Virus record (IMG/VR): IMGVR_UViG_3300008107_007087
Coordinates: 1 to 37,430 of that record
DNA: 37,430 bases
From: a virus
Reading direction: 5' to 3' (one strand)
Position 1 is the first letter of the stretch; each line of letters starts with the position of its first letter. The notes beneath the pieces are model-generated. The model did no database searches. It saw only the letters and a program-made list of their open reading frames with translations, and was not told the DNA's origin. Made by a program: the position numbers and the translations under genes. Of the stretch, positions 3,490-28,772 are shown one piece after another.

Positions 3490-4452
3490 TTATAAACCTT
3501 TATTTGCGAAATATTCATATAATAATAAAACTGGATTTTCATGTGTTTCATACCACAACTTTTCAACATGAATTCTATTAAATTTAGATTCAGTATTATG
3601 TGATTCATATAATTGGTGCGGTCTACAAGTTCTTAAAACCCCATCAACATCTTTAACTCCAATCCCACCAGTAAAATGATAAAAATTCACCTTACTATCA
3701 TCTTCATTATATAATCCAAATTTACCATCAGTAATTTTAATTATTTTTTTTGGACGTTTGTGAAACCACCACGTGTTCATCCATTCAAATTGAGGCAATA
3801 CATGTATATCTACCGAATATAACTGTATCAATAGATTTGTAATATATTGCTCTAAATGTGATATGGGGTTTTTCTTTGTATCAAAATCAGTTGTTAATAT
3901 TTCTATACTTTTCTCCAATAGAAACATATGTTTACTTTTATTAAATCCAATCAATCCAGCATTATAAGTTGGTGTAATTAAATCTTTAGTATAACCATCC
4001 GATAAATCTCCTATATACTTTCTTAATTCTGTTTGTATTCTTTTGTGTTCATCATTCCATTCATGCTTGTCAACATAAGAATAATGTAAAATATCAACTT
4101 CTTCTCTGGCAACAACCATTTTTCCACTTTCTAAAATATCAAATAAAAAATCCATATTAGATAAAAATATAGTATCAGCATCTAATAGTATTTCATAATC
4201 ATGCATATGATTCATTAATCCTATCCATTTAAACAAATATTTTCCTTTAAATTGTTGGAACGTATAACCTTCCATACTCACATCAATAACATCAACTACT
4301 TTCTCTATATGAGCTCTTTTATCAGCATCCAATTCACCGGCAACATATACTTTAATTGGAATTTTACTTTCATAATATTTCCAACTATTATATAACGCTA
4401 TGAAGTCATAATAGTATTTATTTTCAACAAATACACTATAAGATTTACTCAT
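3490..4452 (-). CDS. GT-A type glycosyltransferase
   Basis: A 320-residue protein with a nucleotide-sugar binding half and a DxD motif in LLDADTIFLSNMD (Asp91-Asp93), in the GT8-like style where the DxD follows a hydrophobic strand and is followed by a loop and helix. A YNAGLIGFNKS segment fits the acceptor-side loop of GT-A enzymes. An ATG 14 codons upstream exists, but I chose the ATG at 4452 because it overlaps the TGA of the upstream glycosyltransferase as ATGA and because residue 1 then directly precedes the first beta strand. Donor and acceptor are not predictable. No signal peptide or membrane segment, so cytoplasmic. Confidence 0.8.
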   Translation of the reverse strand: MSKSYSVFVENKYYYDFIALYNSWKYYESKIPIKVYVAGELDADKRAHIEKVVDVIDVSMEGYTFQQFKGKYLFKWIGLMNHMHDYEILLDADTIFLSNMDFLFDILESGKMVVAREEVDILHYSYVDKHEWNDEHKRIQTELRKYIGDLSDGYTKDLITPTYNAGLIGFNKSKHMFLLEKSIEILTTDFDTKKNPISHLEQYITNLLIQLYSVDIHVLPQFEWMNTWWFHKRPKKIIKITDGKFGLYNEDDSKVNFYHFTGGIGVKDVDGVLRTCRPHQLYESHNTESKFNRIHVEKLWYETHENPVLLLYEYFANKGL

Positions 4453-5393
4453 ATCAATACTGATTTTTTTCCAACTTTTTGAATCAATTCCCAATAGTGA
4501 TAAGAAGTTGTATTTTGTTTTATATCTAATTCCACACCGTACGGTAATGTATTCATAAACTCCGATTTGTAGAATAAACCAGAATTTGAATTTACCACTC
4601 CTGCATTGTGAAATATATTACACGTATCCCATAAATCTTCTGGTGATGTTCCCCAACTAAATTGTAAATTTTCATGACAAATGGTTTGGAATCCTAATTT
4701 CCAAGCATTCCATAAAACGGCCCACATATCAGCACACCATATTTGCAATTCATGATAAGATGGGTCTTTTTGTTTTTTAATATTATTTAATTCGGTTATA
4801 TTAACAAATAATTTTTCGGAATCTTCTTCAACTTTTTGCCAATAGTATTCATCTATTCCTTTCATTATATATTGTGCACCGATAGTATTTAGCTCATTAT
4901 CTTCAACAACTTTCTCATCTATATCCGCCAGTTTACACATAGCAGATAATATATCATCTCCTTTAGATTTTATATAAGAATGTGAAATATACCAACGGCA
5001 ATCTGAACCGTACCATATATCATCATTTATCATTTCAGAGGTTATCCATTCATTGATTGGCTTTGTAAACGCAATATCACAATCATGATAGAAAATAGTT
5101 TCTTGTTTTAATTCAGGCCTATTTAACCAATGTTGTTTTAATACATTTGGTCTTACTGATGAAATATAATTTTTATACATTCTAGTATCATCGTAAAAAA
5201 AGAATCTAACGTAATTATATTTTTCAGCAAGAGTAGTCCATTCTACTGGAATTATACCATTTTGTTTTATACCAATTACATCTATATTATTTGGATTGAT
5301 GCCCATTTCCATAAAGTTATGTATCATAACTTCTACTTGCCACGTATAGTAAGGAATACAGGGTTGCGCACAAACGAAACGTAAATTTTTCAT
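4449..5393 (-). CDS. Putative GT-A type glycosyltransferase
   Basis: A 314-residue protein opening with a beta strand (MKNLRFVCAQPCIPYYTWQVE) and carrying YHDCDIAFTKPI, in which Asp104-Cys-Asp106 stands where GT-A enzymes hold the metal-binding DxD. A later segment with conserved-looking aromatic residues (DPSYHELQIWCADMWAVLWN) could form the acceptor site. This protein type appears in phage genomes, and I am less sure of the family than for its partner. It is the first gene of the unit running on to the glycosyltransferase, radical SAM, APS-kinase-like and zinc-ribbon genes. The spacer before it holds an ATAATTATA element preceded by AAAAAACT. Confidence 0.65.
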   Translation of the reverse strand: MKNLRFVCAQPCIPYYTWQVEVMIHNFMEMGINPNNIDVIGIKQNGIIPVEWTTLAEKYNYVRFFFYDDTRMYKNYISSVRPNVLKQHWLNRPELKQETIFYHDCDIAFTKPINEWITSEMINDDIWYGSDCRWYISHSYIKSKGDDILSAMCKLADIDEKVVEDNELNTIGAQYIMKGIDEYYWQKVEEDSEKLFVNITELNNIKKQKDPSYHELQIWCADMWAVLWNAWKLGFQTICHENLQFSWGTSPEDLWDTCNIFHNAGVVNSNSGLFYKSEFMNTLPYGVELDIKQNTTSYHYWELIQKVGKKSVLI

Positions 5394-5408
5394 AACATTT
5401 TAATTAAA

Positions 5409-5417: not shown

Positions 5418-5432
5418 AGTTTTTTGCTTTTT

Positions 5433-6164
5433 TTAACAGAAATCACCAGTACCAGTTCCAACTTGTCCAGTTGACGAATTTAAATTAAATGTTTCACTAA
5501 TTATCATACCACCAAGTTCTTCTGCAACAAATGAATATCCCGTCAATAAGATATCTTGCGGCATTCTATATAAAATTGCTCCATCTGTCGCAGCATCTGC
5601 CAATGATATGTTATTTGCAGATGAACGTACTGAACGAATTGTTGTCAATGAACAAACACCACCGGATGAATTACTTAAAGTAACTGTGAATGTTATAGGT
5701 GCAGCAGTGGTTGTAGTTGTAGTGGTTGTTGGAGCAGCGGTAGTTGTAGTTGTTGTAGTAGTTGGTGCAGCAGTAGTTGTAGTTGTAGTTGGAGCAGAGG
5801 TTGTTGTTGTAGTTGTTGGTGCTGCAGTTGTTGTAGTTGTAGTTGTAGTTGGAGCAGCGGTTGTTGTTGTAGTTGTTGGTGCCGCGGTTGTAGTTGTTGT
5901 AGTTGTAGTGGTTGTAGTAGTTGTTGTAGTTGTAGTTGTAGTTGTTGGTATACCAGATATGCTTAATGTCAATGAATTAGTACATGCACCCACCGATGTT
6001 ATTGTGACTTGTGTAGCCGAATCAGAAACAGTAACACTTTTACCAGCCAATAGTTCTGCTTTAGTAGCAGTGGATGGAACTACTGAGCCTACATTTGCTG
6101 TAAGGTTAAAGTTTGGTCCTAAATCACCACCCATTCCACTATATAATGTTATCGTTGTTATCAT
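5433..6164 (-). CDS. Mucin-like virion or fibre protein with Thr/Ala/Pro linker
   Basis: A 243-residue protein in three parts. Residues 1-73 form an N-terminal beta-rich domain. Residues 74-156 are a linker of a 20-Thr run followed by Thr blocks of 6, 8, 6, 6, 8 and 8 residues, each closed by AAP (one SAP). Residues 157-243 form a C-terminal domain with Cys at its start and as the very last residue. That domain is a clear paralogue of the end of the next protein. The linker would be extended and is an ideal site for O-glycosylation, by analogy with mucins. No enzyme motif is present. It sits 9 bases after its paralogue and next to glycosyltransferases, with the fibre gene further upstream. 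Confidence 0.85.
   Translation of the reverse strand: MITTITLYSGMGGDLGPNFNLTANVGSVVPSTATKAELLAGKSVTVSDSATQVTITSVGACTNSLTLSISGIPTTTTTTTTTTTTTTTTTTTTAAPTTTTTTAAPTTTTTTTTAAPTTTTTTSAPTTTTTTAAPTTTTTTTTAAPTTTTTTTTAAPITFTVTLSNSSGGVCSLTTIRSVRSSANNISLADAATDGAILYRMPQDILLTGYSFVAEELGGMIISETFNLNSSTGQVGTGTGDFC
5436..5696 (-). repeat. C-terminal domain duplicated in the neighbouring gene (copy 1)
   Basis: Encodes the 87-residue C-terminal domain that is homologous to the domain encoded at 6177-6449. Shared features: T-(I/L)-R-x-V, NN, L-x-DAA-x-D, A-(I/V)-LYR-x-PQ, VAE, NSSTG-x-VG and a final Cys. Confidence 0.85.
5697..5945 (-). repeat. Thr/Ala/Pro-coding repeat tract (27- and 33-base units)
   Basis: Coding-strand ACA/ACT/ACC codons make a 20-Thr run followed by units of T6-(A/S)AP (27 bases) and T8-AAP (33 bases). 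The same units occur at 6450-6659. Confidence 0.9.
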
Positions 6165-6173
6165 ATTTCATTT

Positions 6174-7550
6174 TTAACATGCAAATCCTGTATCACTACC
6201 AACTGCTCCAGTTGATGAGTTTATTGTATAAGTATTTGATACTATATTTCCACCCAAAGTACCATCATATTCAGCAACATAATTAAATCCAATTAAAGGA
6301 GTTCCCTGTGGTGTTCTATATAATACAGCATTATCGGCTGCCGCATCATCTAAAGTTGTTGCATTGTTTGATGCGTAAACTAAACGTAGTGTGTTCATTG
6401 AACATGGGCTAGCTGGACTAGCACTTCCTACCGAAACATTAAATATGTTTGGTGCTACGGTAGTTGTTGTAGTTGTAGGTGCTGCAGTGGTTGTAGTTGT
6501 AGTGGTTGTTGGAGCAGCGGTAGTTGTAGTTGTAGTTGGTGCTGCAGTGGTTGTAGTTGTAGTTGTAGTTGGTGCTGCAGTGGTTGTAGTTGTAGTTGGA
6601 GCAGCGGTTGTAGTAGTTGTTGTAGTTGTGGTACTAGTAGTTGTAGTAGTTGTTGGTGTTCCATAAATTGCACTACCACCATTGAATCCACAAATAGGTG
6701 CGTTTGTTGGTAACGGTGCAGCAGTTGTTGTGCTTGGGGCAGCAGTTGTTGTACTTGTAGTTGTAGTTGTTGGTGTACAACTTATATAAGTAGTTAATTT
6801 ACCAGAGCCACCAGAAACTTCACCAAAATAACTACCATTACTATAAAATCCATTAGATACCAACGTAGTTAATGTATTATTGGTATATAAAACTACATCC
6901 TGTGCAAATGTTGCTCCATTTTTAGCATAATATGTAGATGTTCCAGCACTACACGCAGTAAATCCATTGGATGCGTGATATCCTAGTGCAAGTGACACTG
7001 GTCCGGAAGTTGTTGTTGTGGTTGTTGTTGTTGTAAATGTTACACAGGTAACGTTCATTGATTTCACAGCAAAGAGGCCATTACTATCTCTTAAAATTAC
7101 AAAATACTGATTATTTAATAACCCAGTAAATGTATAAGTTGTTGCTCCACTTAATGCAATTGGAGTTTTACTATAAGCTTCTCCAGGTGTATTTCCTATT
7201 TGTACACTTTGATAAGTACCACTACCACCACTAAAAGAAGAAATCTGTATTCTACCATATCCACCAGAACAACCTATGTCCGAAATTGTAAAATTAATCG
7301 GTGCAATAGTCGTGGTTGTAGTTGTTGTAATTGGATATAAAGTAGGATTACAATTTGCATCTAAACTACCAATCTCCTCTAGAGTAGAATCCAATGAACG
7401 AGATACCGTATTTTCTTGTGCAACAAATTCAAAGCTGTTGTTTAACTCATTCAATATTTGTCTAGGACCTCTGTATCCAGAACAGTCTGTCCATTCCACA
7501 AATGAATAAGTGTTGTCAGGTATTGTAATTCTGTAAACGTATGATGCCAT
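6174..7550 (-). CDS. Multi-domain mucin-like virion or fibre protein
   Basis: A 458-residue protein in which short beta-rich domains are joined by Thr runs. The first domain (residues 1-75) has no known match. The second, starting INFTISDIGCSG near residue 84 and ending SMNVTC, resembles the SprB repeat of Bacteroidota adhesins, with Cys at both ends. A third, starting VSLALGYHASNG, ends in ISC. A Thr/Ala/Pro linker (residues 298-367: blocks 9, 6, 8, 6, 8, 6) leads to a C-terminal domain paralogous to that of the neighbouring gene. No catalytic motif. Probably an elongated tail or capsid appendage that is exposed outside; Cys pairs at domain ends would suit disulfides. Confidence 0.8.
   Translation of the reverse strand: MASYVYRITIPDNTYSFVEWTDCSGYRGPRQILNELNNSFEFVAQENTVSRSLDSTLEEIGSLDANCNPTLYPITTTTTTTIAPINFTISDIGCSGGYGRIQISSFSGGSGTYQSVQIGNTPGEAYSKTPIALSGATTYTFTGLLNNQYFVILRDSNGLFAVKSMNVTCVTFTTTTTTTTTSGPVSLALGYHASNGFTACSAGTSTYYAKNGATFAQDVVLYTNNTLTTLVSNGFYSNGSYFGEVSGGSGKLTTYISCTPTTTTTSTTTAAPSTTTAAPLPTNAPICGFNGGSAIYGTPTTTTTTSTTTTTTTTTAAPTTTTTTAAPTTTTTTTTAAPTTTTTTAAPTTTTTTTTAAPTTTTTTVAPNIFNVSVGSASPASPCSMNTLRLVYASNNATTLDDAAADNAVLYRTPQGTPLIGFNYVAEYDGTLGGNIVSNTYTINSSTGAVGSDTGFAC
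6177..6449 (-). repeat. C-terminal domain duplicated in the neighbouring gene (copy 2)
   Basis: Encodes the 91-residue C-terminal domain paralogous to that at 5436-5696, with a four-residue insertion near the VAE motif. Both copies directly follow a Thr/Ala/Pro tract. Confidence 0.85.
6450..6659 (-). repeat. Thr/Ala/Pro-coding repeat tract
   Basis: Encodes Thr blocks of 9, 6, 8, 6, 8 and 6 residues (after TP-T6-S), separated by AAP and ending in VAP. After the first run, block lengths are only 6 or 8, as in the tract at 5697-5945. Confidence 0.9.
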
Positions 7551-7596: not shown

Positions 7597-10362
7597 TTAT
7601 GCTCCGAATTTATTAATGAACCACGCATAGCTCTTATTTCCAGATGAAGAACCACTAACTGCTAAAGTATTAGATGGAGTTACACCGAATGTTACAAAAT
7701 CGGATGAACCACCTAAATAGTTTGTAGTTGGTGCGTTATTTCCATCAAAATAAAATCTAACAATATAAGTTGCGGAGTTGGTTGCTGTTCCAGTACTTGT
7801 ATTAATTGATGCCAATAATAGTAATGTAGCTCCAGCAGTTCCCATATTAATTGGTAATCCTGTATCACCACCTTCGTTTCCAGCTGCTACAAATAAAGAA
7901 CCTTGTGATGCACCTGCATTTACACTACCATCACCAACAACACTAAATTTAGTATTAGAACCAAGTGATGTATCGGTAGTACTTGTACCTATTTGAGTTT
8001 TACCACCAACATTAAACGTTCCACTTGCAGTTACATTACCAGCATTTGATACGTTTAATAGATTAGTTCCGCTATAATTTGTTACTCTGAAATTTGAATT
8101 GTTTGTACTAAAAACAGTATCAATAGAACCGCCACCAGGAATTGTAGCTCTTGGAGTATTTGTTCTATCTCTAACAACAAAAATAGTATTATCACCCGAT
8201 GTTGGACTTTGTCTACCAACGTAAACGTATTTGTTTGGAGAATCTACAAAAAAGTCACCTTTTGTTGCACCCGTACTACTTTCAATAACTTCAAAACTAT
8301 GGGACACTAATAAACTACCGGTAAATTCATGTCTATCATCGGATGTATTACCAAACTTTGTTGAACCACTTTGAAATAATACAGATGATGTTGTATAAGT
8401 TGTATGTAATTCTTGTGTTGTTATTTTACCAGTAAAATAAACATCGTTATTACCATCAATTGTAAATGCGTTCTTTAATGATGCTGTATATCCTTGTAAA
8501 GGTCCTATTTGAGTTAATTCAGTAATTTGAGATGAACTACTTACTACACCATTTGTTGCCAATAATGAACCGGTTAAAGATGGAACTTCTATATTATTCG
8601 TAACATAAAAAGAACCAGTTACCTCTGCTCCAGTTAAACTTACTCTGAACTTTCTTAACCAAGTACTTCCATTAAATTCAGCAACATTGAAACCACTAAA
8701 TCCACCATTTCTACTATCAAATACAAATTCAGCAGAACCTCTTTGGTTTGTTGATGAGTAGCTATTACCAAAGATTTGATAATAAGGTCCATAAATTGAA
8801 CCACCATCAAAGAAACCAAACAACATTGCGTTTGTAGTTCCAGCGTTATATAGTAATGGAGATGCACCACTCAAATTTAAATTACCAGTAATTGTTTGAT
8901 TACCATAGAAAGTATTTGCAGATGATGTTTGTGCAAATGTAAAATAATCTTTTATTTGCTGTGAACTGCTTACAATTCCAGAAGTTTTTAAAGATTGAGT
9001 ATATGATTGAATACCCGTTATATCTAATTTAGCCGAAGATGTAAACACATTTAATGATGATGTGTAAGCTACAATTTGTCCAATTTCAGTTTTAACTGAT
9101 GCGGTATAGGCTAATGTTTGAGAAATAGTTTCTTTAACAGAAGCAGTATAAGCTTGAATATTTGCTACTTCATTTTTAACGCTTTGAGTGTATGCGTTTA
9201 ATGAAGATGTATAGGCTAATGTTTGAGAAATAGTTTCTTTAACAGAAGCAGTATAAGCTTGAATATTTGCTACTTCATTTTTAACCGAAGCTGTATAAGC
9301 TAGTGTTTGTGAAATAGTTTCTTTAACAGAAGCAGTATATGCTTGAATATTTGCTACTTCATTTTTAACACTTGCAGTATATGCTTGAATATTTGCTACT
9401 TCATTTTTAACACTTGCAGTGTATGCTAATGTTTGTGAAATAGTTTCTTTTACAGATGCAGTATATGCTAATGTTTGTGAAATTTCTTCTTTAACACTTG
9501 CAGTATAAGCTTGAATATTTGCCACATCAATTTTTCCAGATGCAGTAAATGTGTTGAGTGATGCCGTATATGACACCAATTGTCCAACTTCAACTTTTAC
9601 CGAAGCGGTGTATGCTTGTATATTTGCAACCGTATCACTTATTGATTGAGAATGTTGGTTGAAAGATGCAGTTACTATTGATACTCCCAAATTAACTCCT
9701 AACTGAGAAGAAGAAAAACTATTGAAAGATGCGGTAACTATTGATGTACCAAGATTCACCCCTAATTGAGATGAAGAAAAACTATTGAAAGATGCGGTAA
9801 CTATTGATGTACCAAGATTCACCCCTAATTGAGATGAAGAAAAACTATTGAAAGATGCGGTAACTATTGAATTTCCTAAATTTACACCCAATTGTGATGA
9901 AGAAAAACTATTAAAAGATGCGGTTACGATTGATGTACCAAGATTTACTCCTAATTGAGAAGATGTAAATTGATTTAATGTTGCAATATTAACCGAATCA
10001 CCATTTACAATCAATGAACCGGTCATATTTACAGATCCAGTAAATTCATGCTTATCGGATGATTGGTCACCAAATTTATTTGAACCAGAAGAAAATACAA
10101 CCGAAGATGTTTGATATATAGTTTCAATATCGTTTACAGTCAATTTTCCGGTAATAGTAACACTACCGTTTACAATTTGATTTCCTGTAAATGTGTTCGC
10201 AGAACCAGTTTTTGCAGCAAATTCAGTTATTTTATCACGTAAAGTTTTAATTGTGATTTGCGCGGTTGTACTAGCCGAAACCATAGCTACTACATCATTA
10301 TCTGATAATTTATATATATTATCAACTACTATGGGAAGTTCGGATATTTTCTTATTTGCCAT
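7597..10362 (-). CDS. Long tail-fibre-like protein with heptad repeats
   Basis: A 921-residue protein. It begins MANKKISELP, an opening common in phage tail and fibre proteins. Residues 130-234 are five 21-residue repeats of the form NSFSSSQLGVNLGxSIVTASF, and the next roughly 210 residues are 14- or 21-residue repeats (VANIQAYTASVKNE and ISQTLAYTASVKET types), all multiples of seven, as expected for a trimeric coiled-coil shaft. A domain near residues 73-120 (SSGSNKFGDQSSDKHEFTGS) is repeated further on as QSGSTKFGNTSDDRHEFTGS. The C-terminal third is beta-rich with many Ser, Thr and Gly, probably the tip. No chaperone or enzyme motif is visible. The upstream spacer has the putative late element. 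Confidence 0.85.
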   Translation of the reverse strand: MANKKISELPIVVDNIYKLSDNDVVAMVSASTTAQITIKTLRDKITEFAAKTGSANTFTGNQIVNGSVTITGKLTVNDIETIYQTSSVVFSSGSNKFGDQSSDKHEFTGSVNMTGSLIVNGDSVNIATLNQFTSSQLGVNLGTSIVTASFNSFSSSQLGVNLGNSIVTASFNSFSSSQLGVNLGTSIVTASFNSFSSSQLGVNLGTSIVTASFNSFSSSQLGVNLGVSIVTASFNQHSQSISDTVANIQAYTASVKVEVGQLVSYTASLNTFTASGKIDVANIQAYTASVKEEISQTLAYTASVKETISQTLAYTASVKNEVANIQAYTASVKNEVANIQAYTASVKETISQTLAYTASVKNEVANIQAYTASVKETISQTLAYTSSLNAYTQSVKNEVANIQAYTASVKETISQTLAYTASVKTEIGQIVAYTSSLNVFTSSAKLDITGIQSYTQSLKTSGIVSSSQQIKDYFTFAQTSSANTFYGNQTITGNLNLSGASPLLYNAGTTNAMLFGFFDGGSIYGPYYQIFGNSYSSTNQRGSAEFVFDSRNGGFSGFNVAEFNGSTWLRKFRVSLTGAEVTGSFYVTNNIEVPSLTGSLLATNGVVSSSSQITELTQIGPLQGYTASLKNAFTIDGNNDVYFTGKITTQELHTTYTTSSVLFQSGSTKFGNTSDDRHEFTGSLLVSHSFEVIESSTGATKGDFFVDSPNKYVYVGRQSPTSGDNTIFVVRDRTNTPRATIPGGGSIDTVFSTNNSNFRVTNYSGTNLLNVSNAGNVTASGTFNVGGKTQIGTSTTDTSLGSNTKFSVVGDGSVNAGASQGSLFVAAGNEGGDTGLPINMGTAGATLLLLASINTSTGTATNSATYIVRFYFDGNNAPTTNYLGGSSDFVTFGVTPSNTLAVSGSSSGNKSYAWFINKFGA
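8990..9630 (-). repeat. 14/21-residue heptad repeats in fibre shaft
   Basis: About fourteen units ending in (A/S)YT(A/S)S(V/L)K or a close variant, mostly 42 bases long with three or so extended by one heptad to 63 bases. Alternation of VANIQ and ISQTL types gives near-identical DNA stretches. Confidence 0.85.
9661..9975 (-). repeat. Five tandem 63-base repeats in fibre gene
   Basis: Five consecutive 63-base units encode 21-residue repeats with core SQLGVNLGxSIVTASF, residues 130-234 of the fibre protein. The middle copies are almost identical at the DNA level, a sign of recent amplification or gene conversion. Confidence 0.95.
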
Positions 10363-10695: not shown

Positions 10696-10698
10696 ATA

Positions 10699-14786: not shown

Positions 14787-14798
14787 AAGTAAAAATTT

Positions 14799-16175: not shown

Positions 16176-16176
16176 A

Positions 16177-19341: not shown

Positions 19342-20330
19342 AATTCTCTTTTTATTCTTTCTAACCAAACTTCTTTTCTAAAACAAGCTTGATAATTAGC
19401 TTTTGCCATTTCTGAACACTCTTTGTAAAAATCTTTATCATCTCTTAATCGTATTGCCAATTCTCTTGCTCCTTCCAAATCATTTACAGCTACTGATAAC
19501 GATGGGTGACAAAGTAATTGAGTATCTACATCTTGATTACCAATACAAGGGATTCCAAAGTATGCACAATTCAAAGCAAATGTACCGGCTGCTACTGTTG
19601 GCATTAAATGTACAGCATATTTAAATGTTGATAATACGGTCATCCACTCATTCCACATTAGTCTTGGTAAGTGAGTTAAGTTATCAACTATATTTTCATT
19701 CTCTCTCATGGCATGAGATGTTTGTGCCCAAATAGGTGTATTAAAATTACCAGCTATTATATAACTCTCAAATCCACCATACCATCTAGCGAAGTTACCA
19801 CCTATAATTGCTTTATCTTCTTTTGTAGGTACTATATCTTTGATTAGAGTATCAATCATTAATGTACCAATAGGTCTTACAGGTTTCGTTGGAAATAAAC
19901 CTTTATAATAATTCACATCACTCTCATTGTGTGTAAAAATTGAATCACAAGATTGTAAAAAATTATAAAAGTAAATTTGGTCTGCCACACTATAATCGTT
20001 ATACCACCAATGAGGTCCTTCTTGTATATAATGAACTTTTTTATTACCTCTCTCTCTCAATTTACCAACTATATCTTGTTGTAATATTTCGGAAAATGGA
20101 TTAATACCATCTATAATTTTACTTCCTTCTGCACTTAAAAATACTTTACCTTTTGGAAATATAATAAAGACATGGTCATAATTAATCAGATGTTTATCAG
20201 AACCAAATAAATGAATATTATAATGGTCCGCATCTAGAGCGTGCATCCAAGCAAATTCAGTTCTCATATTTGGATGGTTCTCTGGAATTTTACCAACAAA
20301 TCCCATTTCAGTTAAGAAGGCTATTTTCAT
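19338..20330 (-). CDS. GT-B fold glycosyltransferase-like protein
   Basis: A 330-residue protein. The N-terminal half opens MKIAFLTEMGFVG and contains alternating strands and helices; the C-terminal half ends in AVHLMPTVAAGTFALNCAYF followed by GIPCIGNQ, which corresponds to the donor-site Gly/Pro/small-residue region of GT-B enzymes, where GT4 enzymes have E-x7-E. The second Glu is not obvious, so it may be a divergent family. It is connected to both neighbours by 4-base ATGA overlaps. Confidence 0.7.
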   Translation of the reverse strand: MKIAFLTEMGFVGKIPENHPNMRTEFAWMHALDADHYNIHLFGSDKHLINYDHVFIIFPKGKVFLSAEGSKIIDGINPFSEILQQDIVGKLRERGNKKVHYIQEGPHWWYNDYSVADQIYFYNFLQSCDSIFTHNESDVNYYKGLFPTKPVRPIGTLMIDTLIKDIVPTKEDKAIIGGNFARWYGGFESYIIAGNFNTPIWAQTSHAMRENENIVDNLTHLPRLMWNEWMTVLSTFKYAVHLMPTVAAGTFALNCAYFGIPCIGNQDVDTQLLCHPSLSVAVNDLEGARELAIRLRDDKDFYKECSEMAKANYQACFRKEVWLERIKREL

Positions 20331-20956
20331 ATCGTATCGTATAAAGCGTTTTGTTTTTCTTGTCTTTCAATTTGCTTATGATGATATAAACAATAAATTT
20401 CTTCCTGTGGTAAGATTGAAAGTGTATTATATCCAGCTATTCTTTCGTGAACTTTTCCTTGCCATTCAATTTCTGAAGTTCTTCTATAAATTCTAGTTTG
20501 ATAATCAGGAAAATTTACCCAACCCTGTTCATTAACTTTCCATCCCCATTTTTTGATATGGTCTGATGTTAAACCATTTACGGTGTTAATACGTGGAACA
20601 AAGAAAAGGTCAACATCTTTATTATAATCTAAAAAGTTATGGATATTTTCAACCAAATATTCGGATGGCATTTCATCGGCATCAATTTGAAAAATAAAAA
20701 TACCATTTGCATTATTTTTTAAGTTATTCTTAAATGATGCAAAATCCTTATTAAGAGGAAATGAAATTACTCTTATATTTTTATGTATTTGTGAAATTAT
20801 ATTCAGATAATCTTTTATCTGAGAAGTTGCGGAATCCGAATCATACTGAATTAATATTTCATCTTCGGATTTAATTCGTGGTTGTAAAAAATCAACCAAA
20901 GTTGTAATTTCAGTTATTTCATTACAAACTGTAATAGCATATGTAACATTTATCAT
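20327..20956 (-). CDS. GT2 family glycosyltransferase (WaaE/SunS-like)
   Basis: A 209-residue GT2 protein: TYAITVCNEITEITTLVDFL opening, FIFQIDADEMPSEYLV (Asp92-Asp94) as the DxD, and FPDYQTRIYRRTSEIEWQGK followed by VHER, the typical C-terminal segment of WaaE-like and SunS-like glycosyltransferases. It is the first gene of the ten-gene sugar operon. A perfect host-type promoter ends only 5 bases before the ATG, suggesting a leaderless or nearly leaderless transcript. Its TGA overlaps the next ATG. Confidence 0.87.
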   Translation of the reverse strand: MINVTYAITVCNEITEITTLVDFLQPRIKSEDEILIQYDSDSATSQIKDYLNIISQIHKNIRVISFPLNKDFASFKNNLKNNANGIFIFQIDADEMPSEYLVENIHNFLDYNKDVDLFFVPRINTVNGLTSDHIKKWGWKVNEQGWVNFPDYQTRIYRRTSEIEWQGKVHERIAGYNTLSILPQEEIYCLYHHKQIERQEKQNALYDTI

Positions 20957-21055: not shown

Positions 21056-22645
21056 TTACTTTGTTTTCAATGAAATTCCACCTCTAAATTCAAATTCACC
21101 AGTTATTCTTGATTCTGCCGAATTGAATTTGTTATACAATACTCTAGGTGTACCACCCCAAACGTTTCTTCTATCAGTCCAGTTGTTATTTGAAAAAGTA
21201 GAATACATATCTCCTGTTGAATTTGCTAATAAAGCAGATTTAATTGCAGATGGCAATGTTTTTGGGTTTACTTCCAGCATCAATGCCAAAACTCCTACAA
21301 CTTGAGGTGCAGCCATTGATGTACCACTTATGTTTACTTGTTTATAGGATGCATTCCAATCATATGGTTGTCCAGAATATGCATTTGTATTTGATGTTGC
21401 ACTCATTATGTTTGTACCTGGAGCATAAATATCAACACCAGGACCAGTTTCCGATGATGTTGCTTTTTGGTCTGTGTTTGCATCATAAACCGTACTATCT
21501 ATATTTCCAACTTTTATTGCTCCACTATAATATGGGGATGAACCTCTATGATAATATAAAGTACCCTGGTCAGTTACAACATAGTTATTATAATCCGTTC
21601 CACCAACTATATCAATTTTATGTCCAAAATTTCCAGCTGCAATTACAACATGAATACCCTCATCTACCATTTCTTGAATATCGGTATCGGTTGATGCCAC
21701 TCTTACATTTGTGATATAATTATATCCCAATGAAGCACCACTTATAGTAATTAACCCATAATTTTGTTCTCTTTCCGTAGTAGTATCAATAGAAGTTCCT
21801 GAATATGAAACCCCTCTATAATTTATACTTGATACGGTGTTGTATGGGTCTAAATATCCCCAACTCATATTAACAACGGTAGGTCTTTTATGTCCCGTTT
21901 TTGGGTCTATTGGTTTATTTCTATGCCAAAGTTTTATAGCATCAAATGCATAAGTTGAACTTATACCAGTACCACTATCACCACTACCTTCCAATCCACT
22001 TAATTTTTGAGAGTATATTCTTGCATTTTTTGCCCAACCATATGTTTTACCAGCAGCTATACCGGCACAATGCGTACCATGTCCATCATAATCTCTGTAA
22101 TGATTTGCATTTTGTGTGAAAGCTAAACCACTTTCAGTAGCCCAATTTATTTGTTGAACTCTACTTGTTCCATCTAATCCCTGAAATTCTGGATGGTCAA
22201 CCTGAATACCACTATCTTGAATTACAACATCAACTCCCATACCAGTTAAAGTAAAATTATAACTAGATGTTGTTGCAGTTGATGTACCATATGGAATATT
22301 ATTACTAAAATTTGAACGAATTAATCCCCAATTAACAAAATCACCAGAATCGGATGTTGTTTTTGTAAAATCTCCTCTTTGTGTAATTCTTTTTCCAATT
22401 ACAATATCGGTTCTATGTTCAGGTGGAATTTCTACATCAAATACTCTTTCATCCAATTTAAGTTGTTCCGCTTCTTCATCGGTAAGCAAATACCAACATT
22501 GACGTAAAGATGCAGGTCTTTCGTTTGTAAATTCTACTCTGCGATTTGGGATATAAAGTTTACCACCATCAGTATCACTTTCTATATCATTCCAAAATCC
22601 ATCGTAATCTATTCCTTCTTTTAAGATAACGTTGTATTCTCTCAT
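21056..22645 (-). CDS. Subtilisin-like serine protease (peptidase S8)
   Basis: A 529-residue protein with an intact S8 catalytic triad: Asp144 in VVIQDSGIQVDHPEF, His189 in GHGTHCAG, and Ser443 in SGTSMAAPQV, plus the oxyanion Asn339 in IAAGNFG. Residues 1-80 resemble an inhibitor I9-type prodomain. No signal peptide or membrane segment is seen, so it is a cytoplasmic or virion protein. A short beta-rich end (GEFEFRGGISLKTK) could attach it to a virion part. It begins 6 bases after the stop of the collagen-like fibre gene, so it may process or ride on that fibre, or cut host surface protein. Confidence 0.9.
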   Translation of the reverse strand: MREYNVILKEGIDYDGFWNDIESDTDGGKLYIPNRRVEFTNERPASLRQCWYLLTDEEAEQLKLDERVFDVEIPPEHRTDIVIGKRITQRGDFTKTTSDSGDFVNWGLIRSNFSNNIPYGTSTATTSSYNFTLTGMGVDVVIQDSGIQVDHPEFQGLDGTSRVQQINWATESGLAFTQNANHYRDYDGHGTHCAGIAAGKTYGWAKNARIYSQKLSGLEGSGDSGTGISSTYAFDAIKLWHRNKPIDPKTGHKRPTVVNMSWGYLDPYNTVSSINYRGVSYSGTSIDTTTEREQNYGLITISGASLGYNYITNVRVASTDTDIQEMVDEGIHVVIAAGNFGHKIDIVGGTDYNNYVVTDQGTLYYHRGSSPYYSGAIKVGNIDSTVYDANTDQKATSSETGPGVDIYAPGTNIMSATSNTNAYSGQPYDWNASYKQVNISGTSMAAPQVVGVLALMLEVNPKTLPSAIKSALLANSTGDMYSTFSNNNWTDRRNVWGGTPRVLYNKFNSAESRITGEFEFRGGISLKTK

Positions 22646-22651: not shown

Positions 22652-25504
22652 TTAATATAATGCGTTCCATGCACTACCATCATAGAAGTATGGTTTAACC
22701 GTAGCTCCGGATGATGATACCGCAAACATACCCATTTGCCCGGTAGGTAATGGATGTATCGCTTCTAATTTAAGTATGTTTGTTAAGTGGGTAGAACCGG
22801 TAACTTGTAATACAGCAGTAGTTGCATCAAAACTAACTAAGTTTTGTGATATCGCAGTTGTTGAACTATCATAAGTTAATATACCATTTGATTTACTACC
22901 CGATAGCGCCAATGAGTTTGGAGGAGTCATAGAACCGGATGTAAAATCAATCCAACTACTACCAATATATCCCATAAATTTGTTCCTATCGGTATTATAG
23001 TATATGTCACCAACTTGCGGAGAAAATGCTGAAGTTGCTGCATTTTGGAAATTCGCTAATCTCAACGATGATGATGAAATTACTACCGTATTGGATGCAT
23101 TTAAGTATAAATTATTTGCTGAATATAGTTCAGGTGAACCAGGAGACGTTACGGTTATAGCAGATGCAGTAATTGAACCACTAACTACTAAAGAGCCCGT
23201 AATACCAACATTATTTGTTGTATTATAAATTGAACCAGTTGCGATAAATATTCCGCCTGCACTACTTCCACCCGCACCTATTGCAACTCCATTTACATAT
23301 ATACTACCACTAACAACATTCAATCCACCACCCGTAATATCAATAGAACCACTTACTTGAACGTGACCACCTGCAATTCTTGTTTCCGTTTTTGGATTTA
23401 CAAGAATAATCTCACCTTGCATATTTGAAGTATTTTCAGATATGTAATAGTATGTTGCAGGATTGAACCCAGCAGTATTCCATTGAACTATTGCTTGTGT
23501 AGAACCATTATTTACAACACCAGATACTCCTTGTCCTGTTCCGGTTGCAGGTGCTGTTTTAATCCAAAAAGGTTGTGCAGATGATGATACTTCAAATACT
23601 AATATATCACCACAGTTTGCGTATATAGTTAGGTCATTTCCAGACCCATCAACTGCTCTATTTGGTGTAAACACATAATTTTGTGAACCATCTTTAGTCA
23701 CTAACCATCTCTTTGTCATTGAACCACTAAAAATTTGTGGTGCTGTAAATGAGTTTGATGTATATGTTAATGCTCCAAAATATTCTCCAATTTGTGCAGA
23801 ACCAGAAACAGTTCCAAGAGGCGCTCCTGTTGCGGTTATATTTCCTATGCTTATTATTGCCCCAGTACTACCACTCGTTGCCAAATTAAAACTACCACTA
23901 AAAACGATATCGGTTATTCCTGCTATGGATGTGATTCCGGTATCTCTTACAGTAAGAATGATAGAAGAACCAGAAGTACCAGAAGTACCACCCGTTCCAT
24001 CACTACCTCTAGCACCAGATGTACCAGAAGAACCAGATGTACCAGTATCACCATTTTTACCAGATGTACCAGAAGTACCTGTTGTACCCGATGTGCCACT
24101 CGTACCAGATGAACCAGATGTGCCCGCTCCAGATGTTCCAGATGTTCCAGATGTACCTGATATACCTTGTACACCAGTACCATTACTTCCATCTTTACCG
24201 GATGTACCAGATGAACCAGAACTTCCACTACCACCACCAGCTCCAATCACTGTCAAACTTACAACGCCACCACCGGCATTTGTTGCTCTAACAGTATTAT
24301 CAAATTGAAGTGTTGTTGTTGATGCTGCAGAAAATGAACCACTATTAATAGTAATACCACCACCACCTGCACCGGTTGTTACGGTTACTTGCCCACCGCC
24401 ATCATTTGATACAACTGCACCATTAAATCTTATTGTTGATATTGCACTAAAAGAAGAACCGCCTTGTTGTGACACCGTTACGTTTGCACTAGTACCATCG
24501 GTACCAGAAACTCCAGATGAACCAGAAGTACCAGATGAACCACTTTGTCCAGATGTTCCAGATGACCCGGATGAACCAGAAGTACCAGCCGATCCTGGTC
24601 CACCAGATGTACCAGATGAGCCACTACTTCCAGAACTTCCTGATGTACCTCTTGTTCCAGAACTTCCCGATGAACCAGATGACCCACTACTACCAGTTTC
24701 TCCAGATGAACCAGAACTTCCTGATGAGCCACTTACACCGGATGTTCCACTACTACCAAAGAATGTACCATCTTTACCCGATGTTCCGGATTCACCGCTA
24801 GTTCCACTACTTCCAGATGAACCAGAACTTCCACTACTTCCAGAACTTCCACTTACTCCAGATGAACCACTTATACCGGATGTACCATGTGAACCCGCTG
24901 GTCCAGAAGCACCTAAAATATTAATAGCCCAAGAAGTATGTGTACCACTACCATTTATACTATCTATATCCGCAGTTAATGCACCATTTCCACTATTATA
25001 TGTAAGAACGGTTGCCGTTATTTTGTTTGTTGCTGAATTTGCTACAATCATCTGCTGTCCAACAGTCCATTGTAATCCTGTACCAATTGTTATTGAAATG
25101 GTATCGTTTGTAGTTAAAGTATCTAAATTCAAACTATCGGTTGCAGTTGATGTATATCTATCACCACTATTACCGCTTGTTCCAGATGAACCAGAACTTC
25201 CAGATAGACCAGATGTACCACTCGTGCCACTTACACCAGATGTACCAGATGTTCCTGCTGCACCAACAGCTCCTATTACGTCCAATGTTACAATACCAGA
25301 ACTTACCTGCTTTACATTTATTGTACTTCCAAAATTAATTTGGGTAACATTTGAATTTGAGGTAGAATGAGTTCCAGATAGAGAACCGCTAGTGACATCA
25401 ATTGAGCCACTTGCAAACACCAAATCCTCTAAATATTGAAGGTTGTCATCCATCTGCTGTGCCGTCAGAGGTGCACCATTTGAGATTCTTTTTATTAATG
25501 CCAT
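22652..25504 (-). CDS. Collagen-like tail fibre protein
   Basis: A 950-residue protein with an N-terminal segment typical of phage fibre attachment domains (MALIKRISNGAPLTAQQMDD). Three collagen-like blocks of Gly-X-Y triplets, mostly GTS and GSS, occur at residues 78-115, 198-339 and 421-513, with almost no Pro. Between them sit beta domains that share a pattern (I-x-F-x-G... V-x-V-x-GA-x-G). The C-terminal 400 residues are beta-rich and end PYFYDGSAWNALY, which fits a fibre tip. Trimerisation of the collagen blocks is expected from known phage collagen-like proteins. It is upstream of the protease in the same transcript. Confidence 0.88.
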   Translation of the reverse strand: MALIKRISNGAPLTAQQMDDNLQYLEDLVFASGSIDVTSGSLSGTHSTSNSNVTQINFGSTINVKQVSSGIVTLDVIGAVGAAGTSGTSGVSGTSGTSGLSGSSGSSGTSGNSGDRYTSTATDSLNLDTLTTNDTISITIGTGLQWTVGQQMIVANSATNKITATVLTYNSGNGALTADIDSINGSGTHTSWAINILGASGPAGSHGTSGISGSSGVSGSSGSSGSSGSSGSSGTSGESGTSGKDGTFFGSSGTSGVSGSSGSSGSSGETGSSGSSGSSGSSGTRGTSGSSGSSGSSGTSGGPGSAGTSGSSGSSGTSGQSGSSGTSGSSGVSGTDGTSANVTVSQQGGSSFSAISTIRFNGAVVSNDGGGQVTVTTGAGGGGITINSGSFSAASTTTLQFDNTVRATNAGGGVVSLTVIGAGGGSGSSGSSGTSGKDGSNGTGVQGISGTSGTSGTSGAGTSGSSGTSGTSGTTGTSGTSGKNGDTGTSGSSGTSGARGSDGTGGTSGTSGSSIILTVRDTGITSIAGITDIVFSGSFNLATSGSTGAIISIGNITATGAPLGTVSGSAQIGEYFGALTYTSNSFTAPQIFSGSMTKRWLVTKDGSQNYVFTPNRAVDGSGNDLTIYANCGDILVFEVSSSAQPFWIKTAPATGTGQGVSGVVNNGSTQAIVQWNTAGFNPATYYYISENTSNMQGEIILVNPKTETRIAGGHVQVSGSIDITGGGLNVVSGSIYVNGVAIGAGGSSAGGIFIATGSIYNTTNNVGITGSLVVSGSITASAITVTSPGSPELYSANNLYLNASNTVVISSSSLRLANFQNAATSAFSPQVGDIYYNTDRNKFMGYIGSSWIDFTSGSMTPPNSLALSGSKSNGILTYDSSTTAISQNLVSFDATTAVLQVTGSTHLTNILKLEAIHPLPTGQMGMFAVSSSGATVKPYFYDGSAWNALY
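23966..24244 (-). repeat. Collagen-like Gly-X-Y repeat block 3
   Basis: Codes for residues 421-513 of the fibre protein, Gly-Ser/Thr-Ser triplets with occasional KDG, KNG and ARG triplets. Confidence 0.85.
24488..24913 (-). repeat. Collagen-like Gly-X-Y repeat block 2
   Basis: Codes for residues 198-339, the longest block, almost uninterrupted GSS and GTS triplets with one short break (GTFFG). Confidence 0.85.
25160..25273 (-). repeat. Collagen-like Gly-X-Y repeat block 1
   Basis: Codes for residues 78-115, a short block of GTS and GSS triplets. Confidence 0.85.
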
Positions 25505-25547: not shown

Positions 25548-25572
25548 TAATAAAGACAAGAAATAGGAAGTT

Positions 25573-26091
25573 TTATTCTTCTGCCGGCTTTGTGGATGTT
25601 TTTGATGGTTTAGGTATTCTTAATAGTCGCATCATTTCTTCGGTATCAAATGTAATTTCTTTTATTAATTTTACATTTTTAAGGATATACGTTCTGTATG
25701 TACCGGGTTGTTGTGTGTAGATTGTATTATTTTTTGCTTTTTGAAAAAATTTAGTTCCCAAACGAGTATCCTCTACCACTATATCATTAAATTTATTTGA
25801 ATTTACACTCTCTACAATAGATTCATATTTTATATTATTCTTTAAATTAAGCTTTAACCAACTAAAAAATTTTATAGGTTGTGCTTCACTTATTTTTAAA
25901 CAATGTAAAACTTTATCAGGAGTTATTCCAATTAAAAATATAATTGCACTTTTAGGACCAGAAAATGTTGTTAGTTTTCCATTAACATATTCATATGATA
26001 CTATTTTATATACTTTTCTAGGTTCTAATCTAGTTTTGGCAACTTGAACTTCTCTTGCAATTAATCTATTATATAAATTAGCAAACGGCAT
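25573..26091 (-). CDS. Hypothetical protein (172 aa)
   Basis: A 172-residue basic protein. The first 50 residues are rich in Arg and Lys with a strand-like VYKIVSYEY, the middle has TFSGPKSAIIFLIGI, and the C-terminus is a Lys/Ser/Pro tail. There is no signal or membrane segment. The alternation of hydrophobic strands and charged turns suggests a small beta barrel, perhaps a virion or nucleic-acid-binding protein, but I do not recognise the family. It overlaps the preceding GT4 gene by one base. Confidence 0.65.
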   Translation of the reverse strand: MPFANLYNRLIAREVQVAKTRLEPRKVYKIVSYEYVNGKLTTFSGPKSAIIFLIGITPDKVLHCLKISEAQPIKFFSWLKLNLKNNIKYESIVESVNSNKFNDIVVEDTRLGTKFFQKAKNNTIYTQQPGTYRTYILKNVKLIKEITFDTEEMMRLLRIPKPSKTSTKPAEE

Positions 26092-27386
26092 TATTGAACT
26101 TTATTTAGCTTTGGAAGTTGCATTTTTTGTATATTAACATTAGGTGCATTGAATGGAATCACCTGTGGTGCTTTCTTTACATAAGTATCAAGTATCTCCG
26201 CAAATCTTTCATGCATTTTTTCCAAAGTAAAATTCTTTAAGGTGTTTTCTTTTAACCCAACTGATTTTTCTAAATAGGAATTATATTTGTTATATACATC
26301 ATATATTTTATTAGCTGCATTTGAGTAATTTACACTAAACCATTGTGCTTCTTTCATAAGAAATTGGTCAGCGGCAGAATCATGAACAGGTGTTAATTGA
26401 CCATCTAATAATACTGCATTTTCTTTTGGTAAAAAATCAATATGACCACTCCAACCACTTGCTAATATTGGTTTACCGGTCAAAGTAAACTCAGCCATTG
26501 GTCTACCATATCCTTCACCTTTTGTAAAAGATAACATTGCTTTTACTTTTGGATGATGGTATAAGTTACTCATATCAGTTTCTTCCATATCACCATGTAA
26601 TAGGTATATAGATGGACATTTATCTCCAAATTGTTTTACTACACTTTCAATTTTCTGACGTGTTGTTTCTCTATCAATTACACTAAATCCAGCATGCGAT
26701 GTTTTAACAATAAGACCAGGTCTTTTATCTTTTGGTAGATATTGGAATACGGTAGCAAATGTTTTAATTGCCATACCAATATCTTTTCTATCTTGTCCTA
26801 AATCTCCTTTCAACCAATGCCCAACTATTAAAAAACAAAAATCTTCTTTTACATTTTCTAGTACATCTTTACTATTTCCTTTTGAGAAAATCTCAACATC
26901 AACACCTTCAAATAAAACTTCAATTGGTTTTTGAACTTTTATTTCACCTAATATTTCATCAGTTTGTGTATTTTTTTGTTGATATACAGTAGCTCCTACA
27001 TTTTGTTTTGTAAAATTAGAAGGTACAATGATTAAATCCATTTTGTTAGAACCATCAATAAAATCTTTTGGACAAATTGTTGTTTCAACACCAGCAGTTA
27101 CACCAATATTATAGTGTCCCTTTGGTTCAAATTCGTTAGCTACTGAAACTTGCATAAACACATCTGGTTTTTGTTCAATTCCAGTAATAACTCTTTCTAA
27201 CATCCATCTTCCAAATTCACTTTCACCATCAACTTGGTTTTGCGGAGTATTACCCCAACGTAGTGGAATAATTTTTATATCGTACTTATCCATTTTACGA
27301 AGTGATTTCATCAAATCTCTACAATGGTCACCATATCCACTTCTCGTAAAAATAGGGCCCTGAAATACTAATATTGGTTTGCTCAT
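26091..27386 (-). CDS. GT4 family glycosyltransferase
   Basis: A 431-residue protein with GT-B fold features. The N-terminus is a strand and glycine turn with GPIFTRSGYGDHCRDLMKSL; the middle has FCFLIVGHWLKGDLGQDRKD (the start of the donor domain); and SFTKGEGYGRPMAEFTLTGK near residues 290-309 is the GT4 E-x7-E donor-binding motif. The donor is a nucleotide sugar and the acceptor is unknown. It lies 3 bases after the stop of a second GT4 gene, so the two act in the same unit, and precedes the fibre operon. Confidence 0.88.
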   Translation of the reverse strand: MSKPILVFQGPIFTRSGYGDHCRDLMKSLRKMDKYDIKIIPLRWGNTPQNQVDGESEFGRWMLERVITGIEQKPDVFMQVSVANEFEPKGHYNIGVTAGVETTICPKDFIDGSNKMDLIIVPSNFTKQNVGATVYQQKNTQTDEILGEIKVQKPIEVLFEGVDVEIFSKGNSKDVLENVKEDFCFLIVGHWLKGDLGQDRKDIGMAIKTFATVFQYLPKDKRPGLIVKTSHAGFSVIDRETTRQKIESVVKQFGDKCPSIYLLHGDMEETDMSNLYHHPKVKAMLSFTKGEGYGRPMAEFTLTGKPILASGWSGHIDFLPKENAVLLDGQLTPVHDSAADQFLMKEAQWFSVNYSNAANKIYDVYNKYNSYLEKSVGLKENTLKNFTLEKMHERFAEILDTYVKKAPQVIPFNAPNVNIQKMQLPKLNKVQ

Positions 27387-27389
27387 AAC

Positions 27390-28772
27390 TTATTTAATTT
27401 TGAATACTTCAAATCTTTTTCTTGGTTTCCAGTTTTCTAATGTAGATTCAATTCCATCTACTAATGTTTGACACATATTTGTATGATTTAATCCAGCCTC
27501 ATTAATAAAATGCTCTCTACCTTTTAATGCGTTTTCTTTTCTTTCTTCTTTTGGTGTATTATACACTTTGAGAATTGCATCCGCAACATCATGCAAATCA
27601 ACTCTATCATCCCAAATATATGGGGTTGGTACTGAACCTGCTAATGCCAATGCTCTACTCCAAACAGGTGTAGCCCAAGGACCAGGTTCTGCTTTACCTT
27701 CCCACTTTCTCCACTCATGCAAAGAACCAATCTTTACATAATCTTCTGCGGTTAGTAATTTACCATCAACTTTAAATCCACATTGGTCTTGCAATCCACC
27801 AGTTACATTTACAATGATTGGTGTTCCCGCCATTATTGATTCTGCAGTTGCTAATCCAAATCCTTCGTTGTTTGCGATGTTGATGGTACAATCTGCTATA
27901 TTATAAAGTAAGTTTAATTCTTGCTGAGGTCTTCTTTTCTCTGAAAAAACAATATTCACATCGGGTGCTATCGCTTCAATTACTGCCGGTAAATCAGTTC
28001 CATTTTCATCCACAGGTTGCGTATGCATTAACAATACACATTTATCTGCTTTTTCTTTACCAATCTTATCACAAAATAATTTGTATGCATATATTACATC
28101 CGATGGTTGCTTTCTTCTAATATTACGGTTTGACCAATAAAGTACAAAATCATATTTTTTATCACCCAACACATCTTTGTAAAAATCATCAGATACTTCT
28201 GCTGGTTTGTAAACATCGGTATTAATACCATGCGGTACATAACTCACTTGCCAATCATCTTTTGTAATCCAAGTTGGTTTATCGTTTCTTGCACCAATTC
28301 TTTTAATGATGCCATAAGTTTGTCTAGAAATACAACCAATCCAATCACAACTCTCATAGTAGTTACGGTTATACATTGGGTCTGGCAAATCATCCCAAAT
28401 TGCGTAAAAAAGGATTGGAACATTTTGTCTTACTTCATGTTCTATCTCATACAACCACGTCCAATAACGAGGGTCAGTAAAGTGTAGGATAGCATCTGGT
28501 TTTTCTGCATTAATTAATTGTCTAAGTAAATCCGCATTTCCATACCCATTCCAAGGAAGTATTTTTACATTAGCATCTTCTACCCCATAAGTTTTACGAA
28601 TATCATCGCTAACATCTAATACCTTTCCTTGCTCTGGATGGTTAATAGCTGCACCTACCTGAAACCAATCGTATTTGTGAACTGTCCCTAATACTAATTC
28701 TTTGGACATCGTAGCGATACCACTCGCCATTCTTAAATCATCTGAAAGTAACAATATTTTTTTCTTTGCCAT
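27390..28772 (-). CDS. GT4 family glycosyltransferase
   Basis: A 460-residue protein. It opens KKILLLSDDLRMASGIATMS with the glycine turn of GT-B enzymes, has DFVLYWSNRNIRRKQPSDVI at the start of the donor domain, and carries NNEGFGLATAESIMAGTPII followed by NVTGG, the GT4 E-x7-E donor motif and its continuation. It resembles the next gene in layout but not closely in sequence, so an old duplication or two separate sources are possible. It is cytoplasmic by sequence and starts 8 bases after the small helix-turn-helix-like gene. Confidence 0.9.
   Translation of the reverse strand: MAKKKILLLSDDLRMASGIATMSKELVLGTVHKYDWFQVGAAINHPEQGKVLDVSDDIRKTYGVEDANVKILPWNGYGNADLLRQLINAEKPDAILHFTDPRYWTWLYEIEHEVRQNVPILFYAIWDDLPDPMYNRNYYESCDWIGCISRQTYGIIKRIGARNDKPTWITKDDWQVSYVPHGINTDVYKPAEVSDDFYKDVLGDKKYDFVLYWSNRNIRRKQPSDVIYAYKLFCDKIGKEKADKCVLLMHTQPVDENGTDLPAVIEAIAPDVNIVFSEKRRPQQELNLLYNIADCTINIANNEGFGLATAESIMAGTPIIVNVTGGLQDQCGFKVDGKLLTAEDYVKIGSLHEWRKWEGKAEPGPWATPVWSRALALAGSVPTPYIWDDRVDLHDVADAILKVYNTPKEERKENALKGREHFINEAGLNHTNMCQTLVDGIESTLENWKPRKRFEVFKIK

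Follow-up and report, generated by a model that had tools for sequence, protein, structure and literature searches.

Linkage of a predicted glycosyltransferase family, PHROG 4417, with threonine-tract proteins in phages

The IMG/VR record IMGVR_UViG_3300008107_007087, a stretch of 37,430 bases that is called the window in the following, is a fragment of a longer genome and represents a piece of a T4-like freshwater phage genome. Every real gene of the window is encoded on the minus strand, and the gene list and the coordinates of an initial annotation, which was made from the sequence alone, were found to be right. Two neighboring genes encode proteins with long threonine (Thr) tracts, and they are directly followed downstream by an operon of three genes, i.e., a member of the protein family PHROG 4417 (4449-5393), a second glycosyltransferase (3490-4452), and a radical SAM/SPASM protein (2450-3478). 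The analysis concerned this operon, the two Thr-tract proteins as its proposed acceptors, and the relation of both to a large glycan cluster of the window (12045-20956, 26091-28772). IMG/VR contigs include many close relatives of the window, and the nearest annotated isolate, as judged by the polymerase, is Microcystis phage Mel-JY01 (47.5% identity). All window genes were compared with 17 long relatives and Mel-JY01; these 18 records are mutually related and some of them are incomplete.

The gene at 6174-7550 (minus strand) encodes a fibre-like protein of 458 amino acids with 25% Thr, in which internal and subterminal tracts of 6-9 Thr are spaced by AAP. The gene at 5433-6164 (minus strand) encodes a protein of 243 amino acids with 35% Thr, which contains a run of 20 Thr followed by TTTTTTAAP/TTTTTTTTAAP repeats, and its C-terminal domain resembles that of the first protein. 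Homologues of 6174-7550 that carry tracts were found in five relatives (G001, G009, G021, G023, and G026), homologues of 5433-6164 in two (G023 and G026). The initial annotation had described four fibre-type proteins as extremely rich in Thr and Ser. This is true for these two, whereas the other two are merely rich in both amino acids and lack a Thr tract. One of these is a repetitive fibre-like protein of the Thr-tract island (7597-10362, minus strand; 27% Thr plus Ser; weak match to PHROG 10969), the other is a collagen-like protein described below. The codons of the tracts were found to be mixed. In 714 runs of at least 5 Thr from related loci, the identity of adjacent codons was 0.294, compared with 0.352 expected from the composition, and a single codon was used throughout in 2 of the 714 runs. 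The tracts therefore reflect selection on the protein and not a DNA repeat, and DNA slippage was ruled out as their origin.

The protein encoded by 4449-5393 (minus strand) matched the PHROG 4417 profile over nearly its full length (E 4.1e-61; residues 5-307 on profile positions 2-291 of 293). PHROG 4417 is listed in PHROGs as a family of unknown function, and the isolate and prophage genes tested are also members. No match to the protein was found in Pfam (E 0.1), in NCBIfam, or among PDB sequences, and a search of the PDB sequences with the PHROG 4417 profile also gave no match. An AlphaFold (AF2) model was calculated from an alignment of 37 relatives and had a mean predicted local distance difference test (pLDDT) value of 97.1. 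Its Foldseek neighbors in the PDB were GT-A enzymes, namely WbbM, UGGT, glycogenin, LARGE1, COLGALT1, and XXYLT1, with template modelling (TM) scores of ~0.5, and many of the GT-A neighbors act on proteins. D104, D106, and H262 were invariant in 37 sequences, and a metal-binding DxD motif together with a distal His is the pattern of GT-A enzymes. Thus, 4449-5393 is predicted to have a GT-A fold with an invariant DxD motif and His. The resemblance to glycogenin (GT8) was confined to the fold (TM ~0.5), with no Pfam or PDB sequence match, and the absence of a Pfam match to the GT2/GT27 catalytic domain (E 0.1) places the protein outside GT27.

The start of the second glycosyltransferase gene (3490-4452, minus strand) overlaps the stop of 4449-5393 by four bases, and the gene order is kept in G026 and in locus L368. 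The protein belongs to Mannosyl_trans3 (PF11051; E 3e-9; 37 bits, with a curated cut-off of 22) and is a candidate extender of the glycan. The radical SAM/SPASM protein (2450-3478, minus strand) matched PF04055 with 45.5 bits and PF13186 with 35.7 bits, both above the cut-off, and is a candidate tailoring enzyme. Among 26 relatives of this protein in viral contigs, 19 adjoin a PHROG 4417 gene, and the rest adjoin another glycosyltransferase gene or a gene resembling one. In one record, a PHROG 4417 glycosyltransferase and a radical SAM protein are fused in a single frame of 665 amino acids, which lies beside a Thr-tract gene (G001:C1:251576-253570, L210). A further small gene of the window (1698-1976) encodes a cysteine-rich protein of PHROG 13558. 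A similar protein is fused to the N-terminus of a PHROG 4417 enzyme in G023:C1:5334-6515 (L236), and similar proteins are encoded within 4 kb of the PHROG 4417 gene in 19 of 80 viral loci.

The linkage of the enzyme and Thr tracts was quantified in phages in general. For the bulk counts, a stretch of 14 residues with 9 or more Thr counted as a Thr tract, and the PHROG 4417 family profile gathered 53 genomic and 80 viral loci. Of the latter, 52 encode a Thr tract within 2 kb of the PHROG 4417 gene, and the tract was located upstream every time. Several Bacillota loci fell below the threshold, with a tail protein that ends with a shorter Thr run. A glycosyltransferase of the same clade, the GT4 enzyme encoded by 26091-27386, served as a control and had a Thr tract within 2 kb in 1 of 80 loci (p = 5e-20 versus PHROG 4417). 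For loci of the family B DNA polymerase and the epimerase of the same clade, any tract was observed in 1 of 160. In the reverse search, contigs were chosen solely because they code for T7-AAP-T4. A PHROG 4417 gene was present in 24 of 80 such contigs, nearly always directly downstream, compared with 0 of 160 controls.

A search with the window protein that was blind to Thr tracts yielded 74 phage records. Isolates with a PHROG 4417 gene include phages of Enterococcus, Lactobacillus, Lacticaseibacillus, Staphylococcus, Arcanobacterium, and Chryseobacterium, and the neighborhoods of eight isolate phages were read. In most of them, the PHROG 4417 gene is directly preceded by a structural gene whose product ends in a Thr-rich stretch, namely a major tail protein, a major capsid protein, or an immunoglobulin (Ig)-type protein. 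The C-terminal end of the major tail protein of phiFL1A is TTTTTSTTTTTTSSTTTTTTTQASSK, and the protein encoded upstream of the enzyme in R3.3, probably the capsid protein, ends with TTTTTTKAPTTTTTSSHA. Semele, 521B, and Chryseobacterium phage MA9V-3 have a similar arrangement. In Enterococcus phage 9183, the enzyme gene follows the major head protein gene, and the Thr-rich end is found on a nearby tail protein. In TPWB06 and SA2, the Thr end is on the tail protein, and the tract is continued in an overlapping frame. At L343:4164-4926 and L345:4117-4930, the poly-Thr end of the major tail protein is carried on in an overlapping frame, which suggests that some copies receive a longer Thr tail by a frameshift.

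The major tail proteins of Bacillota phages enabled a comparison of related proteins with and without a tail of Thr. They were aligned after removal of the C-terminal tails, the core was used to search viral contigs, and 75 loci with at least 1 kb of downstream sequence were counted. The poly-Thr tail and the PHROG 4417 gene were both present in 18 loci and both absent in 57, and one without the other did not occur (Fisher's exact test, p 1e-17, on related sequences). In the best topology of the tail-protein core tree, the two traits switched together 10 times, and the strongly supported branches require at least 4 such joint switches. No pair was discordant; four forced pairs are too few for a sign test to reach 0.05.

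The clade of the window gave a similar result. Homologues of 4449-5393 were found only in G001, G009, G023, and G026, and true Thr tracts were found in exactly these four and in G021, a contig that breaks off within its Thr-tract gene. Tract gene and enzyme gene of G001 lie together about 130 kb away from the usual place. Enzyme and tracts are thus gained and lost together and move together within the clade. Apparent Thr tracts in G006 and G030 turned out to be isolated Thr-rich patches and were discarded; neither of the two enzyme families discussed here is encoded in these records.

The second enzyme family is PF11397 (GT60), which includes polypeptide N-acetylglucosamine (GlcNAc) transferases, among them the polypeptide alpha-GlcNAc transferase of Trypanosoma cruzi, with which the glycosylation of the Thr-rich mucins of this parasite begins. 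In seven Thr-tract contigs without PHROG 4417, a PF11397 gene was found just downstream of the tract. When phage relatives of PF11397 were gathered regardless of tracts, 53 of 80 loci had a Thr tract no more than 2 kb upstream, a set that is less independent than the PHROG 4417 set because 6 of the 8 seed sequences had been chosen beside tracts. Radical SAM/SPASM relatives adjoin PF11397 genes at two loci (L700 and L701). PHROG 4417 and PF11397 have no detectable sequence or profile similarity (hhalign probability 0.1%), and 4449-5393 had no Pfam match to PF11397. For the T. cruzi enzyme, which transfers alpha-GlcNAc to Thr, KPPTTTTTTTTKPP was used as an assay substrate (PMC3769586). This acceptor is a Thr run, and the phage PF11397 genes likewise follow Thr-tract genes, whereas PHROG 4417 is not homologous to the enzyme by sequence or profile.

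We propose that the operon and the two Thr-tract genes form a virion-glycosylation cassette, in which the PHROG 4417 enzyme O-glycosylates the Thr tracts of virion proteins, two partner enzymes contribute, and the tract serves as a portable tag. We assign this reading a probability of about 0.82. It builds on the observed gene content, the predicted fold, the conserved residues of catalytic type, and the linkage of enzyme and tract. The PHROG 4417 protein would be a cytosolic GT-A enzyme that uses a nucleotide sugar and attaches the sugar to Thr hydroxyls in the tracts of 6174-7550 and 5433-6164 before the particle is assembled. The Mannosyl_trans3 enzyme would probably add a further sugar, and the radical SAM/SPASM enzyme would probably tailor the peptide or the glycan. 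In related phages, the tract would be an acceptor tag on the major tail or capsid protein, on Ig-like decoration proteins, on fibres, or on a protease, and the gene of the enzyme adjoins. The Thr-tailed proteins linked to the enzyme in relatives are major tail, capsid, and Ig-type proteins, and the two fibre-like proteins of the window are putative virion components. Catalysis, the O-Thr bond, the sugar, and the roles of the two partners are what we infer, and the benefit could be shielding, stability, or adhesion.

Several observations weigh against this proposal. The nearest solved folds have TM scores of only 0.5, so that they do not reveal the donor or the acceptor. No tract was present in the retrieved stretch of 18 of the 80 viral PHROG 4417 loci, and some tails of the tail proteins contain only 4-7 Thr. 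When 22 records were checked over their whole length, T7 tracts were found in 6 of 6 records of at least 42 kb and in 0 of 16 shorter ones. Neither enzyme family was encoded in the available stretch of 49 of the 80 T7-AAP-T4 contigs, and 27 of these 49 have at least 4 kb of downstream sequence; the lack of an enzyme in over half of the Thr-tract contigs is in part due to contig ends. The steps suggested for 3490-4452 and 2450-3478 were derived from gene linkage.

The initial annotation had attributed a dedicated virion-glycosylation system to all sugar genes of the window. This is strongly supported for the operon 2450-5393 with its proposed acceptors up to 7550, whose enzyme family is tied to Thr tracts in phages of several bacterial phyla, but not for the whole pathway. 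The main part of the large cluster (12045-20956, minus strand) contains four glycosyltransferase-like open reading frames and, according to Pfam, three Glycos_transf_2 (GT2) genes (12931-14094, 18571-19341, and 20327-20956), an FkbM methyltransferase, a fusion of HAD and nucleotidyltransferase domains, and a UDP-GlcNAc 2-epimerase (E 1e-67), the last three as originally named. The second part (26091-28772, minus strand) consists of two GT4-type glycosyltransferase genes beside a PD-(D/E)XK nuclease gene, i.e., 26091-27386 (PHROG 2170) and 27390-28772 (Glycos_transf_1, Pfam), which are core genes of the clade and are present in 18 of 18 records, Mel-JY01 included. About eleven glycosyltransferases had been predicted for the window. 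Seven are supported by Pfam, PHROGs, or the predicted fold, whereas 12045-12938, 16865-17587, and 19338-20330 had no significant match in Pfam or PDB profile searches and 16177-16881 had none in Pfam, the only collection scanned for it. These four reading frames are kept in relatives, and 12045 contains an invariant DxD motif. The FARYxDGE motif of 16865 resembles GT-D enzymes, but a classification as such an enzyme had no support in Pfam and was not retained.

The cluster is widely kept among the 18 records, with conserved ends and a variable middle, and Thr tracts are absent from most of the records. It is kept without a Thr tract in G002, G003, G004, G019, G020, G028, G030, and G034, and therefore it does not serve Thr tracts alone, which rules out the whole cluster as a Thr-tract pathway as it had been formulated. 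Surface-polysaccharide loci have conserved ends, a variable middle, and sugar genes of this kind, and by analogy the cluster looks like such a locus. It may thus remodel a surface glycan of the host, e.g., for a block of superinfection, while the small operon alone modifies the virion. This division of labor is possible, and we hold it only tentatively. It would fit the epimerase, the nucleotidyltransferase, the FkbM methyltransferase, and the occurrence of the cluster without tracts, but no flippase, polymerase, or priming membrane transferase was recognized in the cluster, and the genes of the clade sit with the replication block and not with lysogeny genes.

The window encodes a collagen-like tail fibre protein with GSS/GTS repeats (22652-25504, minus strand; PF01391, E 5e-31; PHROG tail fibre families; 33% Thr plus Ser, 18.5% Gly). 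Its gene is enclosed by the cluster, with the GT4 pair on one side and the GT2 end on the other, as is also the case in most of the relatives that carry the cluster. The gene occupies an equivalent place in many relatives, and collagen-like proteins are encoded in 13 of 13 epimerase-bearing records. Glycosylation of this fibre is therefore possible, as is remodelling of the host surface. Sugar genes in relatives without any Thr- or Ser-rich fibre had been named in advance as an observation that would speak against virion glycosylation; the relatives that keep the cluster without Thr tracts carry these collagen-like, Ser/Thr-rich fibres, so that this situation did not arise among them. The original proposal was that all sugar genes of the window build one long glycan on both the Thr-tract and the collagen-like appendages. 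The position of the collagen-like gene is in favor of it, and a variable middle would be expected for a diversifying glycan. Nevertheless, we regard a single pathway as rather doubtful. The cluster is kept in relatives that lack both Thr tracts and the 4449-5393 enzyme, the core GT4 gene is not linked to Thr tracts (the control above), and reduced clusters persist in G006, G013, G014, and G017, which have no collagen-like gene; the records compared are related and in part incomplete.

Glucosylation of modified bases of the phage DNA has a precedent in T4-like phages, and the GT4 pair adjoins replication genes. This explanation is nonetheless improbable, as no base-hypermodification gene was recognized in the window, which does contain a DNA methyltransferase gene (35110-36681), and the linkage of PHROG 4417 and GT60 is with virion genes and not with DNA-modification genes. 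Linkage by itself does not demonstrate catalysis. A role of PHROG 4417 without catalysis, as a chaperone or binding partner of proteins with Thr tails or as a hitch-hiker with the tract cassette, is nevertheless very improbable in view of the GT-A fold with its invariant DxD motif and His, the constancy of tract and enzyme on varying acceptor proteins, and the same linkage of an unrelated glycosyltransferase family, PF11397.

Homologues of PHROG 4417 are also encoded in chromosomes of Pedobacter, Sphingobacterium, Chitinophaga, and Mucilaginibacter, as longer proteins of about 480-590 amino acids, one of which carries a Glyco_transf_7C domain. The Bacteroidota loci L427, L430-L442, and L444 resemble clusters for ribosomally synthesized and post-translationally modified peptides (RiPPs), with double-glycine leader peptides, LanC-like proteins, and a C39-peptidase ABC exporter; one of the RiPP-like precursors is VLGGVSWTTTTTTSSVPV. 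This context suggests peptide substrates for the PHROG 4417 family as a whole, and the products of the clusters are possibly glycosylated RiPPs. Beyond the cassette of the window, we lean towards a more general view. Thr tracts would be a transferable, mucin-like virion glycosylation tag that was repeatedly attached to virion proteins as different as the tail tube, the capsid, decoration proteins, fibres, and a protease in tailed phages of several bacterial phyla and is served by at least two unrelated families of dedicated polypeptide glycosyltransferases, PHROG 4417 and GT60, sometimes with a radical SAM partner, and related enzymes would also glycosylate bacterial RiPP peptides.

Further features of the window do not belong to the sugar genes. 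The T4-like replication block occupies the right-hand 8 kb and encodes a sliding-clamp-like protein, the DNA methyltransferase, a family B DNA polymerase (PolB), a dUTPase, clamp loader subunits, and the PD-(D/E)XK nuclease. In G019, G020, G023, G026, G028, G030, and G034, the region corresponding to 32556-36681 differs: the polymerase identity falls to about 57%, and the methyltransferase gene is gone. The clamp loader and the nuclease are still 72-88% identical in these records, and thus the polymerase segment has apparently been replaced. The window also encodes an S8 family protease (21056-22645, minus strand; PF00082, E 1e-32). Related S8 family proteases carry a C-terminal Thr tract in three relatives (G009:13181-15070, G023:611-2392, and G021:897-2621).

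Virion glycosylation by phage enzymes has precedents. In the mycobacteriophages Che8, Corndog, and Myrna, the capsid and tail tube proteins are reported to be modified near their C-termini by glycosyltransferases that the phages themselves encode (Freeman et al. 2023, via PMC12363180 and PMC12619734). With many PHROG 4417 relatives, the major tail or capsid protein likewise has its Thr tract at the C-terminus; in contrast, the capsid and tail proteins of Che8 have no Thr tract. Homology to Che8 gp108-gp110 was rejected, because hmmsearch with the PHROG 4417 profile gave no match and blastp gave no meaningful match to any window protein. For bacterial Ser-rich-repeat adhesins, successive glycosyltransferases are encoded beside a low-complexity Ser/Thr acceptor. 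The window shares this succession and this kind of acceptor, but no dedicated export genes were recognized, and its enzymes are of other families. The proposed O-glycosylation activity is known as such; the novelty lies in PHROG 4417 as its enzyme family, in the rule that a Thr tract is the acceptor, and in the repeated occurrence of this acceptor on different virion proteins. A literature search, which was incomplete for subscription journals, retrieved no paper that links Thr tracts to phage glycosyltransferases.

The results offer a testable function for PHROG 4417, a phage family listed as unknown. Since tail and enzyme coincide without exception among the related tail proteins, ready-made pairs are available for experiments, and a small, soluble enzyme acting on plain Thr runs could serve for adding sugars to proteins. 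As the acceptor motif is simple and can be read from the sequence, glycosylated virions would become predictable from genomes. Virion glycans have been reported to shield phages from antibodies (PMC12363180), and therefore, the system bears on the persistence of phages.

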